DNA of 64,000 bases from Effusibacillus dendaii (lineage in GTDB: Bacteria > Bacillota > Bacilli > Tumebacillales > Effusibacillaceae), in NCBI RefSeq assembly GCF_015097055.1, contig NZ_AP023366.1, forward strand, positions 1,550,001 through 1,614,000. Reading direction: 5' to 3'. Position numbers and translations under genes: made by a program. The notes under the pieces were generated by a model. It was not told the origin of the DNA. It did no database searches and saw nothing but the letters and a program-made list of their open reading frames with translations. Positions 38,769 to 61,550 of this stretch are shown in pieces. Every line of letters starts with the position of its first letter. Within the stretch, counting starts at the first letter, position 1.

Positions 38769-39416
38769 TTACACCCTCCCTGCGGAAACTCTCCGTTCCA
38801 ACCAACGCACAACAAGAGTCAGGGAGTACGCAAGAACAAAGTAAATGACAAGAATAAGCCCCAATATCTCCGGCGTTCTGGCAATGTTTGCGGTTCGCAT
38901 CAGCATACCGGTAAACGTCAAATCGGATAATGTGATCAGCGAAACAAGCGATGTGCCTTTTAAAAGTTCAATCAACAGATTTCCGAAAGCGGGCAGCATC
39001 AGAGTAAACGCTTGCGGGAGGATCACGCTCCGCATCCGCTGAAACGAGGTCAGGTTCAACGCGATTGCAGCTTCCGTCTGCCCTTTTGGAATCGCCTGAA
39101 TCGAACTACGGACAATCTCCGAACCGTAAGCGCCATAGTTCAGTCCTAACGCCAGAACACCTGTTGTCATCGGCTCCAGTTCAATTCCCAATATTGGCAA
39201 AGCGAAAAACAGCCAAAACATTTGCACCAGCAATGAAGTACCCCGAAAAAATTCCACATATACGGCTGCAGCCATTCGCACCCATGCCCATTTTGACAAA
39301 CGACACAACCCAGCGGTGAATGAAAGGAGCAAAGCTGCAACCGCAGAACAGGCCATTACTTGCAGAGTCACTTCTACCCCGTGCAGAAGGGGTGTAAACA
39401 GGTCAGTCGGAAAAAT
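38769..39416 (-). CDS. ehuC: Ectoine/hydroxyectoine ABC permease EhuC, ATT start
   Basis: A HisM-type permease of 215 residues if started at ATT 39416. The N-terminus FPTDLFTPLLHGVEVTLQVM aligns with the EhuD N-terminus, and the EAA loop is GQTEAAIALNLTSFQRMRSVILPQA. The first standard start in frame is GTG 39371, which would cut off the periplasmic start of helix 1. ATT stands seven bases after GGGGTG and 18 bases after the ehuB stop, so initiation at ATT is preferred. CTG 39401 is a less likely alternative. Confidence 0.85.
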   Translation of the reverse strand: MFPTDLFTPLLHGVEVTLQVMACSAVAALLLSFTAGLCRLSKWAWVRMAAAVYVEFFRGTSLLVQMFWLFFALPILGIELEPMTTGVLALGLNYGAYGSEIVRSSIQAIPKGQTEAAIALNLTSFQRMRSVILPQAFTLMLPAFGNLLIELLKGTSLVSLITLSDLTFTGMLMRTANIARTPEILGLILVIYFVLAYSLTLVVRWLERRVSAGRV

Positions 39417-53705: not shown

Positions 53706-53737
53706 AAAAAAACGACCCTACCTGGTTTGGTAGGATC
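53706..53737 (-). terminator. Terminator of the fadR-etfBA operon
   Basis: On the minus strand GATCCTACC-AAACCA-GGTAGGGTC followed by GTTTTTTT, 22 bases after the etfA stop. Confidence 0.93.
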
Positions 53738-53758
53738 GCGTTCGTACTATGAATCGGA

Positions 53759-54739
53759 TTACTCCGCCAATACTTTCTTCAACTCTTCCGTCAGTACCGG
53801 TACAACTTCAAACAGATCGCCAACGATTCCGTAATCCGCCACTTTGAAAATCGGCGCTTCCGGATCCTTGTTGATCGCTACAATTACTTTCGAGTTGGAC
53901 ATACCAGCCAAGTGTTGAATTGCGCCAGAAATACCGCAAGCAATGTACAAGTCAGGTGTTACAACTTTACCGGTTTGACCAATCTGCAGCGCGTAATCGC
54001 AGTAACCGGCATCACATGCACCGCGCGAAGCCCCAACAGCCGCCCCCAATGTATCTGCCAATTCCTGCAGCGGTTTGAATCCATCCGCACTTTTTACACC
54101 GCGACCGCCGGAGACAATAATTTTGGCTTCCGAAAGGTCGACGCCACCGGTCGTTTTCTTGACCACTTCTTTAATGAAGGAACGAAGCGAGTCAGCCGGA
54201 ATATCCACCGATACATTGACTACGTTCGCACTGCGTCCCGCCCCCGGCTCGGACGCCGGCAGGTTGTTCGGACGAATTGTCGCAAACACAACTCCCTCGT
54301 TAATCACATTTTTAGTAAACGCTTTACCGGCATAGATCGGACGAGTGAACACCAGTTTTCCGCCCTCGATCTGTACATCGATAATGTCGGATACTTGAGC
54401 AGCTTCCAGCCTTGCTGCCACTTTCGGCGCCAAATCACGTCCAATTGCCGAATGAGCGAGGAATACCACATCCGGGTTGGATTCTTTAATTACCGTTTCC
54501 AGCGCTTTGGCATAAGCATCGGGCACATAGTTGCCAAGCGCTTCGTTTTCCACTACAAACACTTTGTCTGCTCCGTATTGAGCCAAAGAATCAGCCGCAC
54601 CGCTGACGTTTTTACCAAGCAATGCACCGTACACTTCGCCGCCTTCCGAAATCTTGCGAGCGGCGCTAAGCGCTTCAAACGTTACATTGCGGACCTTATC
54701 GTGTCTGATATCTGCAAGTACAAGTACTTTCCGTGCCAT
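53759..54739 (-). CDS. etfA: Electron transfer flavoprotein alpha subunit
   Basis: A 326-residue EtfA that holds FAD and takes electrons from acyl-CoA dehydrogenases. The FAD-binding C-terminal part shows SGGRGVKSADGF, LGAAVGASRGACDAGY, IGQTGKVVTPDLYIACGISGAIQHLAGM and INKDPEAPIFKVADYGIVGD (each typical). It follows etfB by 34 bases. Confidence 0.96.
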   Translation of the reverse strand: MARKVLVLADIRHDKVRNVTFEALSAARKISEGGEVYGALLGKNVSGAADSLAQYGADKVFVVENEALGNYVPDAYAKALETVIKESNPDVVFLAHSAIGRDLAPKVAARLEAAQVSDIIDVQIEGGKLVFTRPIYAGKAFTKNVINEGVVFATIRPNNLPASEPGAGRSANVVNVSVDIPADSLRSFIKEVVKKTTGGVDLSEAKIIVSGGRGVKSADGFKPLQELADTLGAAVGASRGACDAGYCDYALQIGQTGKVVTPDLYIACGISGAIQHLAGMSNSKVIVAINKDPEAPIFKVADYGIVGDLFEVVPVLTEELKKVLAE

Positions 54740-54773: not shown

Positions 54774-55532
54774 TTAGATTACTTTATCATTCGAGCGAAG
54801 CGCTGAAATCAGTTCTTTTACGCGGTCGACAGTTTCCCCTTCAAGAATGCGTCCGCCCGTTTTTTCCTTCGGCAAGAACGTTTCTACAATTTCACTCTTG
54901 GCATTGGCGGAAACGTTGAGATCAGCAGCCGTTACCACATTCAACGGGATTTTGTTTGCTTTGCGAATTCCCAGCAAAGACGGATAACGCGGTTCATTCA
55001 GGCCTTGCTGCGCCGTGAATACGGCAGGCAAAGTGGTCTCTACAATTTCCTGATCGCCTTCCGCATCACGATGAGCGGTTACTTTGGTGCCATCGATTTC
55101 GATTTTTACTACAGTCGAGACATGCGGAATGCCAAGCAGTTCAGCCACACGAACGGCAACCTGACCGGAACCGTCATCAACTGCCTGTACACCCCCGAGA
55201 ATAATGTCGTATGGCTTGGTTTTGATATATTCAGCCAGCGTTTTGGCGACTTTATATTCGTCTCCGAACAGCGCCGGATCGTTAATGTGCACGCCGTGAT
55301 CAGCCCCCATCGCGAGCGCCTTCCGCAAAGCCTCTTCCGCCCGATCGGGACCGACTGTAATGACAGTCACTTCCCCGCCAAAGTTGTCGCGCATCACAAG
55401 CGCTTCTTCAATCGCATACTCATCGTACGGGTTAATAATGTACTGCACGCCGTCCTCTTTGATTTTTCCGCCGTCGAGAACAATTTTCTCTTCGGTGTCG
55501 AACGTTTGCTTCATCAGTACCAAAATGTTCAT
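54774..55532 (-). CDS. etfB: Electron transfer flavoprotein beta subunit
   Basis: A 252-residue EtfB, partner of EtfA and binding AMP. Motifs: MNILVLMKQTFDTEEKI, NPYDEYAIEEALVM, VGPDRAEEALRKALAMGAD and the recognition loop EPRYPSLLGIRKANK. GAGAGGGGATTCC precedes the ATG. It lies 37 bases after fadR, the same order as in B. subtilis except that fadB is absent here. Confidence 0.96.
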   Translation of the reverse strand: MNILVLMKQTFDTEEKIVLDGGKIKEDGVQYIINPYDEYAIEEALVMRDNFGGEVTVITVGPDRAEEALRKALAMGADHGVHINDPALFGDEYKVAKTLAEYIKTKPYDIILGGVQAVDDGSGQVAVRVAELLGIPHVSTVVKIEIDGTKVTAHRDAEGDQEIVETTLPAVFTAQQGLNEPRYPSLLGIRKANKIPLNVVTAADLNVSANAKSEIVETFLPKEKTGGRILEGETVDRVKELISALRSNDKVI

Positions 55533-55569: not shown

Positions 55570-56157
55570 CTACTTTTTCATCGCATGCACCAGCAGGTCC
55601 ACAACCGGTTCAATCAATCCCTGCAAGTCGTACTTCGCTCCTGTCAGCACCCAGGCGGTGATCGTTTCATCCATGGTACCAAAAATCATTCTCCGCGCGA
55701 TCCGATGATCGATGGTCGGGCGGAAGATGCCTTTGTCGATCCCGTCTTGAATAATATGGTCAATCAGTTGGTAATAAGGACGGATGATGTCCCCAATCTG
55801 TCGCCTCATCGCCTGGTCCGCTTGCCGCAGATGAATCTGCGTGACCGCTGCCAAACTTTTGTTATGAGCAAGCCCTTCAAAGTAAACCGTTACCAAATGA
55901 TGCAGTTTGCGGATAGGGTCGGTTTCCGTTTGGAATCTGGCTTCGATTTCCGTCCGTATACGGCCAATCGCTTCACTTAATATGGATATCAGAACGTCTT
56001 CCTTATTCTTGAAGTACAGGTAAACCGTTCCGTCCGCTACACCCGCTTCCCGTGCAATTCGAGAAATTGGCGCATTGTGGTAACCAGCCTGCCCGATTAC
56101 ATTAATGGCCGCAGCAAGAATTGCCTCATACTTATCCGGGTCTTTTTTTTGAGCGAT
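55570..56157 (-). CDS. fadR: TetR-family fatty-acid regulator FadR, ATC start
   Basis: A TetR repressor of 195 residues. The helix-turn-helix is ISRIAREAGVADGTVYLYFKNKED, preceded by KYEAILAAAINVIGQAGYHN. The C-terminal ligand domain runs to HAMKK. Acyl-CoA would release it from DNA. Upstream of the conserved N-terminus an in-frame TGA is met (GGGTGACCC) and no ATG, GTG or TTG exists until codon 88. ATC 56157 lies seven bases after GGGGTG (ATT 56160 four bases), so non-standard initiation is proposed. A perfect TGAATGATCATTCA operator lies just upstream. Confidence 0.88.
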   Translation of the reverse strand: MAQKKDPDKYEAILAAAINVIGQAGYHNAPISRIAREAGVADGTVYLYFKNKEDVLISILSEAIGRIRTEIEARFQTETDPIRKLHHLVTVYFEGLAHNKSLAAVTQIHLRQADQAMRRQIGDIIRPYYQLIDHIIQDGIDKGIFRPTIDHRIARRMIFGTMDETITAWVLTGAKYDLQGLIEPVVDLLVHAMKK

Positions 56158-56182
56158 AATGGGTCACCCCCGGAACCAAAAA

Positions 56183-56196
56183 TGAATGATCATTCA
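56183..56196. promoter_or_regulatory. FadR operator
   Basis: TGAATGATCATTCA is a perfect palindrome that keeps the TGAATG and CATTCA half-sites of the Bacillus FadR consensus with a shortened centre. It is 25 bases before the fadR start and probably mediates autorepression. Confidence 0.7.
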
Positions 56197-56347
56197 GTTT
56201 TTATTCTACGCATAACCATTATCCCTGTCAACCAGTATGCCAGAAAATTGGGCAAAAAACAAAACGGAAAGATTTCGGCTGCCATACCGTCACTTTCCGT
56301 TTTATTTCAATCTGTGCGGGTTTTGTTTCCGTCGCTTTTCGTATTGT

Positions 56348-56896
56348 TTACAAACTTGTCACAATCAAATCCAACTCGCCCGTCACCTGAAACCCGCCCA
56401 ACGTTGCAGGAAGCAGACAGTGGTCACCGCTTGTGAAGCTCGATTGTCCGTTTTCCCAAAACAGCTTTCCGGATCCTTTCACTCCTGACAGCAGTAAAAA
56501 CGAATCTGGCGAAACGGCGTATTCCGCCACCCCTTTCACCCGCCACCCGCACATCGAAAAATATGGGTTTTTCAAGTATCGGAAGCGTTAAACCAGGCTT
56601 CCGTTTTTCCCGAATCGGTCAGCCCGTTCTGTTTTGTGTACTCGTCGTTCGGATGCACCTGCACCGAAAGGTCCTGCCAAGGTTCGATCCATTTAACAAG
56701 CAGGGGAAACGACTGCAACGAATTGTCACCAAAAAGCTTCCTTTCCGTCTGCCAAATCTCCGGCCGCGTTTTACCGGACAGTTCCCCGTTACGTGCTGGC
56801 GTAAGCGCGTCCGGATGAAAGGAAATCGCCCAATATTCATATCCCCAGATCCGTTCTTTCCGAATCGGCTCAAAAAAAAAGCGGATACGGCCTCAC
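56348..56896 (-). pseudogene. manA: Mannose-6-phosphate isomerase, broken
   Basis: The start GTG-AGG-CCG-TAT-CCG would give MRPYPLFFEPIRKERIWG, but a run of nine T (eight needed) shifts the frame. The next frame encodes EPIRKERIWGYEYWAISFHP, FPLLVKWIEPWQDLSVQVHPND and GKTEAWF, then stops at 56586. About 150 central residues are missing before the C-terminal piece NPYFSMCGWRVKG and SFTSGDHCLLPATLGGF, which ends at 56348. Hence a frameshift plus an internal deletion. Confidence 0.85.
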
Positions 56897-57204: not shown

Positions 57205-57299
57205 AAAACCAATTTTGGTTAGTTGATAGTAAACCGACAATTTTTAGAATGCAATGGTTTTGAAAATGACCATTATATTCTGGATTTGTCGGTTTTTTT
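57205..57299 (+). promoter_or_regulatory. Structured leader and terminator before dabB
   Basis: AACCAATTTTGGTT (57207-57220) is a first small hairpin. Then AAACCGACAA (57231-57240) pairs perfectly with TTGTCGGTTT (57286-57295), enclosing an inner ATGGT/ACCAT hairpin, and TTTTTTT follows. It looks like an attenuator placed 70 bases before dabB. No known riboswitch class was recognised. Confidence 0.65.
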
Positions 57300-57366
57300 G
57301 TTGGAAGAATACAAATCTTATGTAACAGAAATGTTGGTTAAATCATTTCGATTGGGGGGATACTGG

Positions 57367-58902
57367 ATGTTAGCTGTTCTGGATTTTTTGTCGCTACCGA
57401 TAGCATTTTTTGTATCACTTGTGGTTTCAGCGTTCAGCGCGTTATTTATGTTACATCCACGTGTTCCTTTGAATTTTGTTCGTATTCACGTCGGCATATG
57501 TGGGTTTCCCCCATTAATTGCTCTGTTGAATCTTGTCACTAAAAAAACGAATGAGATTTTCGGTCCATGGCACCTTGATCCCTTAGCTTGGTTGACAGCG
57601 TTATTTGTTCTTACAATCGGTTTTATAGTACAGCGCTACTCCATACGTTACTTACTTGGTGATCGTAATTATCGAAAATACTTTGCGCTCTTGACACTCA
57701 CTACGGGTGCTGCATCAGTTGCTTGGTTAAGTGATGACCTCCGCCTTATGTTGGTGTGTTGGGGTACTACACTTCTAGGGATGACATTGCTTATAGGGTT
57801 AAATAGAGAGTGGAAAGTGGCAAGAACTGCATCTGCACGTTCTGGTCGACTGTTTGCACTAAGTTGGCTTATTTTGTTGTTAGCCATAACCTGGCTAACG
57901 CAAGTCACCGGACACTGGCAGTTATCACTTGTGCTTTACAAAGGCAGTCTGTTGAAACTTGGTTCATGGGAGAGGACCGGCATAAATCTGCTAATGGTAG
58001 TTGCAGTGGTGATTCCAGCTGCACAGTATCCTTTCCACCGCTGGTTGTTAGACTCGGTAGTTGCTCCCACGCCCGTTTCCGCGGTGATGCACGCGGGTAT
58101 AGTGAATGCTGGCGGAATTATACTGACCCGTTTCGCACCACTATTTAGTGGCGATTTTACCCAAATTTTTTTAATCGTTCTTTCTAGTTTTTCAGTCTTG
58201 CTCGGGACTGGAATTATTTTGGTCCAAGTTGACTATAAACGTCAGTTAGTTGGCTCTACGATTGCGCAGATGGGCTTCATGCTAATTCAGTGTGCATTAG
58301 GTGCTTATTTAGCAGCAATTATTCATGCCGTATTACATGGTCTGTTTAAATCCGCCCTTTTCTTACAGGCGGGCTCAGCGGTACATCACAACGAGCTAAA
58401 GACACGTACAACCCCACTACCATCATTTTTATGGAGAATTGCAGGGGGTGTTTTCGGACTATTAATGGGGGGTGGTTTTTGGTTAATTACTAATGGAAAG
58501 GGTGACGAATTAATTAGTGCATTACTCCTGGGATGGTCAATTTCATTCGCTTGGACACAGCTAGTGGCTTTGGGTTACGGGCGTATTGGGCGTATTATGG
58601 GATTTTCCCTAATAGCAGGAGCGGTAATCGTGTTCACCGCCATCCTTACCACTTTCAATGGACTGTTACATAGAACCGTTCAGCTTGGAATTCAACCACC
58701 TACATCGGTGGTCATTTTGGTTCTATCAGTCTTGTTGTCCGCTAGTGCTATAGGTGCTTGGTTAACTCGCCATCATTCTTCTACTTCCTTTGCTGTATTG
58801 TATCTTTGGCTCATACGATTGGGTGAGCCCCATCCTGATTCGGTCGAATCCCATCCAAAGTATCTGGCATTCAGTCTGTCTCAAGGAGGGAATAAACGAT
58901 GA
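57367..58902 (+). CDS. dabB: DabB, proton-channel subunit of inorganic-carbon pump
   Basis: A 511-residue membrane protein of the NuoL/MrpA family with about 13-14 helices. Conserved NuoL-type segments are WLLDSVVAPTPVSAVMHAGIVNAGG (in pieces) and AAIIHAVLHGLFKSALFLQAG with the channel Lys and His residues. Next to dabA such a protein forms the DAB system, in which a cation gradient drives CO2 hydration and bicarbonate trapping. The start at 57367 follows GGGGGGATACTGG; an upstream in-frame GTG extension is not family-like. Its stop overlaps the dabA start. Confidence 0.9.
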   Translation: MLAVLDFLSLPIAFFVSLVVSAFSALFMLHPRVPLNFVRIHVGICGFPPLIALLNLVTKKTNEIFGPWHLDPLAWLTALFVLTIGFIVQRYSIRYLLGDRNYRKYFALLTLTTGAASVAWLSDDLRLMLVCWGTTLLGMTLLIGLNREWKVARTASARSGRLFALSWLILLLAITWLTQVTGHWQLSLVLYKGSLLKLGSWERTGINLLMVVAVVIPAAQYPFHRWLLDSVVAPTPVSAVMHAGIVNAGGIILTRFAPLFSGDFTQIFLIVLSSFSVLLGTGIILVQVDYKRQLVGSTIAQMGFMLIQCALGAYLAAIIHAVLHGLFKSALFLQAGSAVHHNELKTRTTPLPSFLWRIAGGVFGLLMGGGFWLITNGKGDELISALLLGWSISFAWTQLVALGYGRIGRIMGFSLIAGAVIVFTAILTTFNGLLHRTVQLGIQPPTSVVILVLSVLLSASAIGAWLTRHHSSTSFAVLYLWLIRLGEPHPDSVESHPKYLAFSLSQGGNKR

Positions 58903-61550
58903 ACGGAAGCTCAACATTACCCGATCAAGTAGATTTGCAAAAGGAAATTTTAATACCTGATTATCCAGATCAAAATCTTAATCTTTCCCCTGTCCCTGAT
59001 ATTAACGATTTGGTGAGATCCGCCAGCCGAGTCATTGCACCGCTTGGACCTATTGCCACGTTTGCGGCACGTAATCCTTGGATGGGACTTGAAGGACAAT
59101 CATTTGAACAAGTTGCACGCTGGCTCAAAGATATTCGCGATGTAGATATATGTCCTAGTGCTTCTATACTGCTGGATGCGAAGAATCGAGGCGAGATTCA
59201 TCAGGATTTTCTCGAAGAAAGGCTTCAACATTGGCTTGATGTACAGTCTCTTGATTTGTCACGTGACGTTGCTGAGCGATTCTGTCGGGCTGCACTTAAG
59301 CTAGATGATCTACCTCCCAATCTGTTGGCAGCACCTAAGTTAAAGGGTTTGGCAGAGAAACTGAGCGGTCTAAAATTGAAGACTATTGAGAGACATCCGA
59401 TGAAAACCTTGAGTCTTCGTTTGGAACAGCAGGTTTGTGAGAGGGTGGCTCATGATCTTGATCGCCACGTAATTAAATGGTGTAAGCTGTTCTTGGATGA
59501 GTCCCAGGCAGCTTGGTCATTGCCAAATAAGGAGGAAGGTTTCTATCGTGCGTGGCGCCGGCTGGTTCAGTACGACCCAGCACTTAGTCATTCGCAACGC
59601 CGGCGATTAAAAGATTGTCCGCAAGAGGCAGATGCTGCTTTAAAAGAAGCATTGTCGGCACTTGAAATTCCAGAGTGGCAGATACAAGACTATCTTGAGG
59701 CTCATTTGCTTTCCTTGCCAGGGTGGGCAGGAATGATGCTTTGGCGATCGCAACAATCAACCCGAGAAAATTCACTTCTAACCGAATATTTGGCTGTTCG
59801 GATTTCCTTGGAGTGGGCTCTGATCAAACCTTATCTGCCCTTACCTGAGCAAAAAACCGATGATCAATCACTTCTTGTTCCACTGATTGCAGCTTGGGTT
59901 CATTGGGGTGAAATGCCAATTGAAGCTTGGTCACAGTTATCTTCTTCGGAGCAAAAGGCACGCTTGAATCTCGCCCACCGTTTTGATCATTTGCTTCGCA
60001 AGCGGCTTTGGTTGGAAGCCTGGGAGCAAACATACGAAGAAAGATTAAAAGAGATGATTACATCGAACCAGTTTAAATCAGACGAGATAAAGCCTATGTT
60101 GGCACAATTTGCCTTTTGTATTGATGTACGTTCAGAGCCCTTTCGCCGTGAGCTTGAAAAAGCAGGTCCTTTTAAGACATATGGGGTTGCCGGTTTTTTC
60201 GGATTGCCTATTGAGACATGTGAACTTGGCAGTCAACATAGCCATTCCTCCTTACCGGTTATGCTCAAACCGAAACATAAAGTAAAAGAGTTTTCTTCTG
60301 AGTTTGAATTCAAAACATATCAACAGCGTCGACAGGTGGCAAATTCACTTAATCGTACGTTTAAAACGATGAAACAAAACATGCTTACCAGCTTATTGTT
60401 GCCAGAGTTAAGTGGTCCTTGGCTTAGTCTACAAATGTTGGTACGAAGCTTTTTCCCACGTTGCGGTGGTCGTACCTTCCGACAGCTCCAACAATTATGG
60501 CTGCGTAAACCGTCTACGGAACTCTCGTTAGATCACAAGCATACGGAAGCGGAATTGCCTGTTGGTTTTTCTGAAGAAGAAAAAGTATACTATGTACGAC
60601 AGGCACTGAAAATGATGGGTTTAACAAATAATTTCGCTCCATTAGTTGTGATTTGTGGGCATGGAAGTCACAGCACTAACAATCCCTATTCCGCTGCTTT
60701 AGACTGTGGAGCTTGCGGAGGGGCTTCGGGTGGTTTTAATGCGCGGGTTCTAGCAGCTTTGTGTAACCTTCCAAAAGTAAGGAAGAACTTGGCAAATGAA
60801 GGGATTTCAATCCCAGAAGATACGGTTTTTACGGCTGCAGAGCATATAACGACGCTTAATCAATTACGTTGGCTGTATGTTCCCAAACTTTCAGAAACAG
60901 CACAAGAAGCATTTGAACAAATCTGTGCCACATTGCCAAATGTTAGTGATTGTGTAAATAAAGAGCAATTAGCGCGATTACCTAATCTCAGCTCTCGTTC
61001 AAAAAACCCGAAGACTGATATGCAACGTTTTGCGGAAGATTGGAGTGAGGTACGCCCGGAATGGGGGCTAGCGCGTAACGCCGCATTTATCATTGGTGAC
61101 CGTTTGCTTACTCAGGGGTGCAATTTGGATGGAAGAGTTTTTTTACACAATTATGATTGGAAGAAGGATCAAGATGGTATTCTGCTTTCTAACATTATCG
61201 CTGGTCCAGCGACGGTGGCTCAATGGATAAACCTACAGTATTACGCATCAACCGTCGCACCTCATTATTATGGCAGCGGTAATAAAGCTACCCAAACAGT
61301 CACTGCAGGTCTTGGTGTAATGCAGGGGAACGCAAGTGATTTGTTAACTGGGCTTCCCTGGCAGTCCGTAATGAAATCGGATCAAGAGGTTTATCATGCT
61401 CCTCTGCGGTTGCTGGTGCTCATCCAAGCACCAAGAGAGTATGTGGAACGATTGTTAGCTCACGATTCCGCGTTCCACCAAAAAGTTCATAACGGTTGGA
61501 TTCGGCTTGCGACCATTGATCCAGAAGGATACTGGGAGAGTTGGTCATAA
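58899..61550 (+). CDS. dabA: DabA (DUF2309), zinc subunit of inorganic-carbon pump
   Basis: An 883-residue protein with a beta-carbonic-anhydrase-like zinc site. The ligand set is intact: Cys407 and Asp409 in FCIDVRSE, His588 in CGHGSHS and Cys603 in DCGACGG. The 2- and 15-residue spacings equal those of characterised DabA. FAARNPWMGLE near the N-terminus is typical. It lies in the cytosol bound to DabB and hydrates CO2 in one direction. GGAGGG precedes the ATG, which overlaps dabB by four bases. Codon use is more AT-rich than neighbours. Confidence 0.95.
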   Translation: MNGSSTLPDQVDLQKEILIPDYPDQNLNLSPVPDINDLVRSASRVIAPLGPIATFAARNPWMGLEGQSFEQVARWLKDIRDVDICPSASILLDAKNRGEIHQDFLEERLQHWLDVQSLDLSRDVAERFCRAALKLDDLPPNLLAAPKLKGLAEKLSGLKLKTIERHPMKTLSLRLEQQVCERVAHDLDRHVIKWCKLFLDESQAAWSLPNKEEGFYRAWRRLVQYDPALSHSQRRRLKDCPQEADAALKEALSALEIPEWQIQDYLEAHLLSLPGWAGMMLWRSQQSTRENSLLTEYLAVRISLEWALIKPYLPLPEQKTDDQSLLVPLIAAWVHWGEMPIEAWSQLSSSEQKARLNLAHRFDHLLRKRLWLEAWEQTYEERLKEMITSNQFKSDEIKPMLAQFAFCIDVRSEPFRRELEKAGPFKTYGVAGFFGLPIETCELGSQHSHSSLPVMLKPKHKVKEFSSEFEFKTYQQRRQVANSLNRTFKTMKQNMLTSLLLPELSGPWLSLQMLVRSFFPRCGGRTFRQLQQLWLRKPSTELSLDHKHTEAELPVGFSEEEKVYYVRQALKMMGLTNNFAPLVVICGHGSHSTNNPYSAALDCGACGGASGGFNARVLAALCNLPKVRKNLANEGISIPEDTVFTAAEHITTLNQLRWLYVPKLSETAQEAFEQICATLPNVSDCVNKEQLARLPNLSSRSKNPKTDMQRFAEDWSEVRPEWGLARNAAFIIGDRLLTQGCNLDGRVFLHNYDWKKDQDGILLSNIIAGPATVAQWINLQYYASTVAPHYYGSGNKATQTVTAGLGVMQGNASDLLTGLPWQSVMKSDQEVYHAPLRLLVLIQAPREYVERLLAHDSAFHQKVHNGWIRLATIDPEGYWESWS

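Follow-up and report, generated by a model that had tools for sequence, protein, structure and literature searches.

The fatty-acid repressor gene fadR starts at a conserved AUC codon in Effusibacillus dendaii and its relatives

The fatty-acid metabolism repressor gene fadR of Effusibacillus dendaii begins at an ATC codon, and ATC or ATT occupies the same conserved position in all 52 of its close orthologues. The gene lies on the minus strand of the 64,000-nucleotide stretch of genome analysed here (the window). A sequence-only reading of this DNA had proposed a start at ATC or ATT, naming orthologue comparison as a check and a sequencing error that restores an ATG as grounds for rejection. 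That comparison has now been made; it settles on the ATC at 56157 and excludes such an error. The unusual start is confirmed as real, being neither an error nor an oddity of a single strain. We hold with considerable confidence that this AUC is initiated by fMet-tRNA with the help of a strong Shine-Dalgarno (SD) site, was acquired once, and has been retained by selection for a low dose of repressor. To our knowledge, very few chromosomal genes keep a start other than AUG, GUG or UUG by selection. The features concerned, all on the minus strand, are:

56203..56231 (-): predicted sigma-A promoter, TTGACA-17-TAGAAT, from a consensus scan (11/12 matches; a consensus match is not proof)
56183..56196 (-): predicted FadR-type operator TGAATGATCATTCA at the inferred +1, from sequence
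56164..56171 (-): SD site GGGGGTGA, a match to GGAGGTGA; duplex with the 16S tail, -14.3 kcal/mol
56155..56157 (-): ATC start codon of fadR (ATC/ATT in 52/52 orthologues; two third-base changes on the clade tree)
55570..56157 (-): fadR, TetR-family fatty-acid metabolism repressor, 195 aa, identified by NCBIfam, domains and structures
54774..55532 (-): etfB, ATG start, second gene of the operon (ETF domain)
53759..54739 (-): etfA, ATG start, third gene of the operon (ETF and ETF_alpha domains)
53712..53739 (-): putative intrinsic terminator, 11-bp stem and T6, from a consensus scan

Read from the ATC, the fadR product scores 257.9 bits against the NCBIfam FadR equivalog NF053878, above the cut-off of 200, and contains a complete TetR_N helix-turn-helix (PF00440) together with a YsiA-type TetR_C_4 domain (PF08359). 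Its nearest solved relatives include the FadR-type structures 5gp9, 1vi0 and 3whb, the chain of the last carrying the name fatty acid metabolism regulator protein. No ATG, GTG or TTG precedes codon 88 counted from the ATC. The stop-to-stop frame (55570..56163, minus strand, 197 codons) holds a single ORF with such a start, 55570..55896, which opens at the TTG of codon 88 and encodes 108 residues of the C-terminal domain only; the whole TetR_N helix-turn-helix is encoded before it. The ORF list and the domain search thus bear out what had been noticed from the letters, namely that the DNA-binding domain lies upstream of the first standard start. The minus strand at this point reads CCGGGGGTGACCC ATT ATC GCT CAA AAA AAA GAC CCG. 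The codons follow in the order TGA (56166-56164), CCC, ATT (56160-56158) and ATC (56157-56155), in agreement with the earlier placement of a TGA two codons ahead of ATT-ATC, and GGGGTG ends seven bases upstream of the ATC, also as reported.

To compare start codons, 168 distinct FadR loci from public genomes were aligned on a conserved Lys-Tyr that lies eight to nine codons into the gene. In the close orthologues the start codon is ATC in 47 and ATT in 5 (n = 52), with ATG, GTG, TTG or ATA in none, and it sits exactly nine codons before the conserved Tyr in every case. These orthologues span six families in at least two orders: f1, f2 and f5 of the window's own order, f25, and f11 and f34 of the order of genome G059, apparently the one that includes Alicyclobacillus. 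Among the named species are Tumebacillus flagellatus, T. permanentifrigoris, Alicyclobacillus pomorum and A. contaminans. The codon just 5' of the start encodes 14 different residues among the 52, and the next one 5' is equally free. The adjacent ATT (56160-56158) was ruled out as the start codon on the same grounds, as it is variable in relatives (GAT, GCG, ATG, ACG, GAG and others). Next to the start, comparable constraint is confined to the SD and the opening bases of the following codon, with G at +4 in 51 of the 52. The base at -1 is C in 21, G in 18 and T in 13 of the 52 sequences, and never A. Two orthologues, L091 and L100, carry an ATG directly before the ATC with usable spacing and may start there instead. 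In almost all of the remaining FadR genes, about 115 in number, ATG, GTG or TTG stands at the homologous place or close to it, such that the canonical-type N-terminus MAKRTGEKY aligns to I-AQKKDPEKY of the ATC type. In L153, L204 and L205 a canonical start is needed a few codons further upstream, and the most distant gene, L041, was left unassigned. Judged from these sequences, automated pipelines would cut some orthologues short and lengthen others as far as an ATG within the FadR box. In all these lineages, gene callers limited to ATG, GTG and TTG would annotate the DNA-binding end of FadR wrongly.

In a maximum-likelihood tree of 167 FadR proteins, from which the start codon itself was left out, the 52 orthologues with ATC or ATT form one clade (SH-aLRT 100) with no canonical start inside; the program flags long branches close to some of the outer rows, and support for the ATC clade itself is 100. 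On a tree of the clade alone, two changes account for the third base of the start codon. The third bases of three other invariant Ile codons of fadR changed 10, 17 and 15 times, with ATA occurring at two of the three, and fourfold-degenerate third bases changed about 20 times, often to G. A single substitution would give ATG, yet no member of the clade has it, so the weak start is under purifying selection and the one-step return to ATG is selected against. Separately, a subgroup of genus g12 in the order of G059 (L153-L161) has a distant FadR-type gene before etfB, with about 39% identity and an ATG or TTG start. These genes group away from the ATC clade, and in this subgroup replacement of the ATC orthologue seems to have taken place.

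Initiation at AUC by fMet-tRNA leaves a mismatch at the third base and therefore needs a strong SD. The ATC of fadR follows the SD core of GGGGGTGA by nine bases, the same spacing as in infC. Across the survey the SD is stronger in the ATC/ATT clade than in canonical-start fadR (median duplex energies -12.5 versus -10.35 kcal/mol; Mann-Whitney p = 3e-10, uncorrected for relatedness). RNA folding at the fadR start in the window revealed nothing conserved or unusual (z-scores 0.09 and -0.30). A search with the pattern GGGCTNATAACCC returned two initiator tRNAs, both with anticodon CAT, and an initiator with another anticodon was rejected within the scope of that pattern alone, none being among its matches. 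The AUC at 56157 would thus be read by the ordinary fMet initiator tRNA, guided by the strong and correctly spaced SD, and the first residue of FadR is predicted to be (f)Met, giving M-A-Q-K-K-D and so on.

The leader reads, on the minus strand, TTGACA-17-TAGAAT-AAAAAC-TGAATGATCATTCA-TTTTTGGTTCC-GGGGGTGA-CCC-ATT-ATC-GCT-CAA-AAA-AAA-GAC, and the gene order is fadR-etfB-etfA, followed by the strong terminator-like hairpin at 53739-53712. A FadR box is present at the operon looked at, fadR's own, and in its orthologues: a palindrome like TGAATGATCATTCA lies 14-32 nt ahead of the start in 50 of the 52. Autorepression of the operon is suggested by the promoter-like site together with the palindrome at the expected +1. 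Such an anatomy poses a stoichiometry problem, the first gene of the operon being its own repressor, which a weak start would solve. The weak start would hold the yield of FadR to a small fraction of that of etfB and etfA, which share its mRNA and start with ATG. An autoregulated repressor placed first in a strong operon would have to be far scarcer than EtfBA, presumably the reason for selection, and scarce FadR would leave acyl-CoA able to lift repression. On this proposal the start was gained once in the ancestor of the clade and has been held by selection since. A FadR kept low in this way would fit both the operon anatomy and the published ccpN parallel (PMC13009471). In other families, an ATG-type fadR can also be an autoregulated gene adjoining etfB (e.g. 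L104, L169 and L180), so adjacency to etfB was rejected as the sole cause of the AUC. Operon order alone does not explain the start, and another property of this clade must contribute, such as the strength of the promoter or the affinity of the repressor. Close to the fadR promoter, on its upstream side, 56572..56892 (-) encodes part of a type I phosphomannose isomerase (PF20511, 42.5 bits) and seems to be a broken manA-like gene. The region 57223..61550 (+) encodes an NADH-quinone-oxidoreductase/Mrp-type membrane subunit and then DabA, a DAB inorganic carbon transporter pair.

Other explanations of the start differ in how far the data reach them. An extra A in the A8 run could have cut the frame off from the GTG at 56167, given that A7 would open GTG-ACC-CAT-TAT-CGC-TCA in frame, and the broken manA-like gene next door could hint at a decaying locus. 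The orthologues refute both: independent genomes have the same start without the A8 run and invariant residues are kept along the whole protein in 52 species. The Ile codon could instead be internal, each species starting at a canonical codon upstream, such as an ATG within the FadR box or a GTG at the third codon before it. Indeed, 35 of the 52 orthologues have some in-frame ATG, GTG or TTG upstream, e.g. the GTG at -3 in Tumebacillus. However, none occurs before the nearest stop in the other 17, among them the window's own gene and those of two out of three congeners, and for these 17 this explanation is refuted. The upstream codons neither align nor are conserved as protein, the GTG at -3 belongs to the SD and lacks an SD of its own, and a conserved internal Ile would not freeze the third base. 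Taken across the clade, an internal Ile is very improbable.

The remaining alternatives accept the AUC start and differ over why it persists. A functionless historical accident, in which an early loss of ATG was tolerated since a strong SD compensates, accords with the single origin and with the strength of the SD, but a single C-to-G change restores ATG and none is found in the clade, although free third bases changed about 20 times, often to G; we therefore consider an accident unlikely. A sensor has somewhat more in its favour: initiation would drop with a change in IF3 or growth conditions, making FadR synthesis track the translation state, as with infC and ccpN. IF3 disfavours third-base mismatches in vitro, lowering the product from such starts (PMC10158994), the AUA start of ccpN is medium-dependent (PMC13009471), and infC in this order has the same layout as fadR. 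Against this, the AUU start of Staphylococcus cvfC1 is without a medium effect (PMC13009471), and we see the sensor as possible but not probable. Its fuller form is more doubtful still, whereby the AUC, tuned by IF3 or growth state, would couple fatty-acid breakdown to translation capacity and would have been selected since an Alicyclobacillus/Tumebacillus/Effusibacillus-like ancestor.

A low repressor dose set by a weak start, the reading we prefer, belongs to a kind already known, namely a conserved non-canonical start with a strong SD in a dosage or regulatory gene (infC, pcnB, ccpN and cvfC1). The textbook ATT-start gene is infC. In infC (AUU/AUC/AUA), as in fadR, a perfect or nearly perfect SD precedes the non-canonical start at the same spacing, and both genes occur in this genome; infC is autoregulated through IF3, which it encodes, whereas fadR encodes a metabolic repressor. 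In Staphylococcus, AUU and AUA starts with an extended SD give about 10% of the AUG yield in poor medium, and they include that of the repressor ccpN, conserved in B. subtilis (PMC13009471). The starts of ccpN (AUA) and cvfC1 (AUU) in Staphylococcus and Bacillus resemble that of fadR in their conservation and extended SD (PMC13009471), and ccpN is likewise a metabolic repressor, but these genes belong to another protein family and use AUA or AUU rather than AUC. Moreover, the conservation of the fadR start, unlike theirs, is traced through 52 genomes and six families with a rate test. The AUU start of E. coli pcnB is inefficient and limits translation (Binns and Masters 2002, as cited in PMC13009471), in this case for an RNA-processing enzyme of another phylum. 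The fadR start shares two features with infC and ccpN, being an AUU, AUC or AUA codon conserved between species behind a strong, properly spaced SD. Bacillus FadR (YsiA) belongs to the same NCBIfam equivalog family and has the same operator type, but Bacillus-type fadR starts with ATG, GTG or TTG. Our literature search, with most subscription journals outside its reach, found no report on fadR start codons in Alicyclobacillus; work on AUC starts concerned mostly mitochondria, with no report for fadR. The fadR gene appears to be a new example of a non-canonical start, conserved unusually well and using AUC in place of AUU or AUA. Here a metabolic repressor keeps a weak start clade-wide with a measurable signature, a frozen third base and a strengthened SD, making weak starts as dosage control directly testable in culturable bacteria.

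An SD-aware scan covering 278 coding ORFs in 464 kb of the window's genome yielded five candidates for non-canonical starts: fadR, infC, ehuC (good) and two weak ones. So few candidates suggest that the genome does not use such starts freely and that the fadR case goes beyond chance. The ehuC-like ectoine ABC permease gene (38769..39416, minus strand; TIGR03004, 254 bits) is without a canonical start with an SD, and has AAGGGGTG followed by ATT TTT CCG ACT GAC nine bases past the GGGG core, a second candidate ATT start. This site is not conserved, with a differing sequence in the two nearest relatives. Two of the three strongest candidates are fadR and infC, and in ten genomes of the same order infC has GGAGGTGA or GGGGGTGA, six bases and then ATT.
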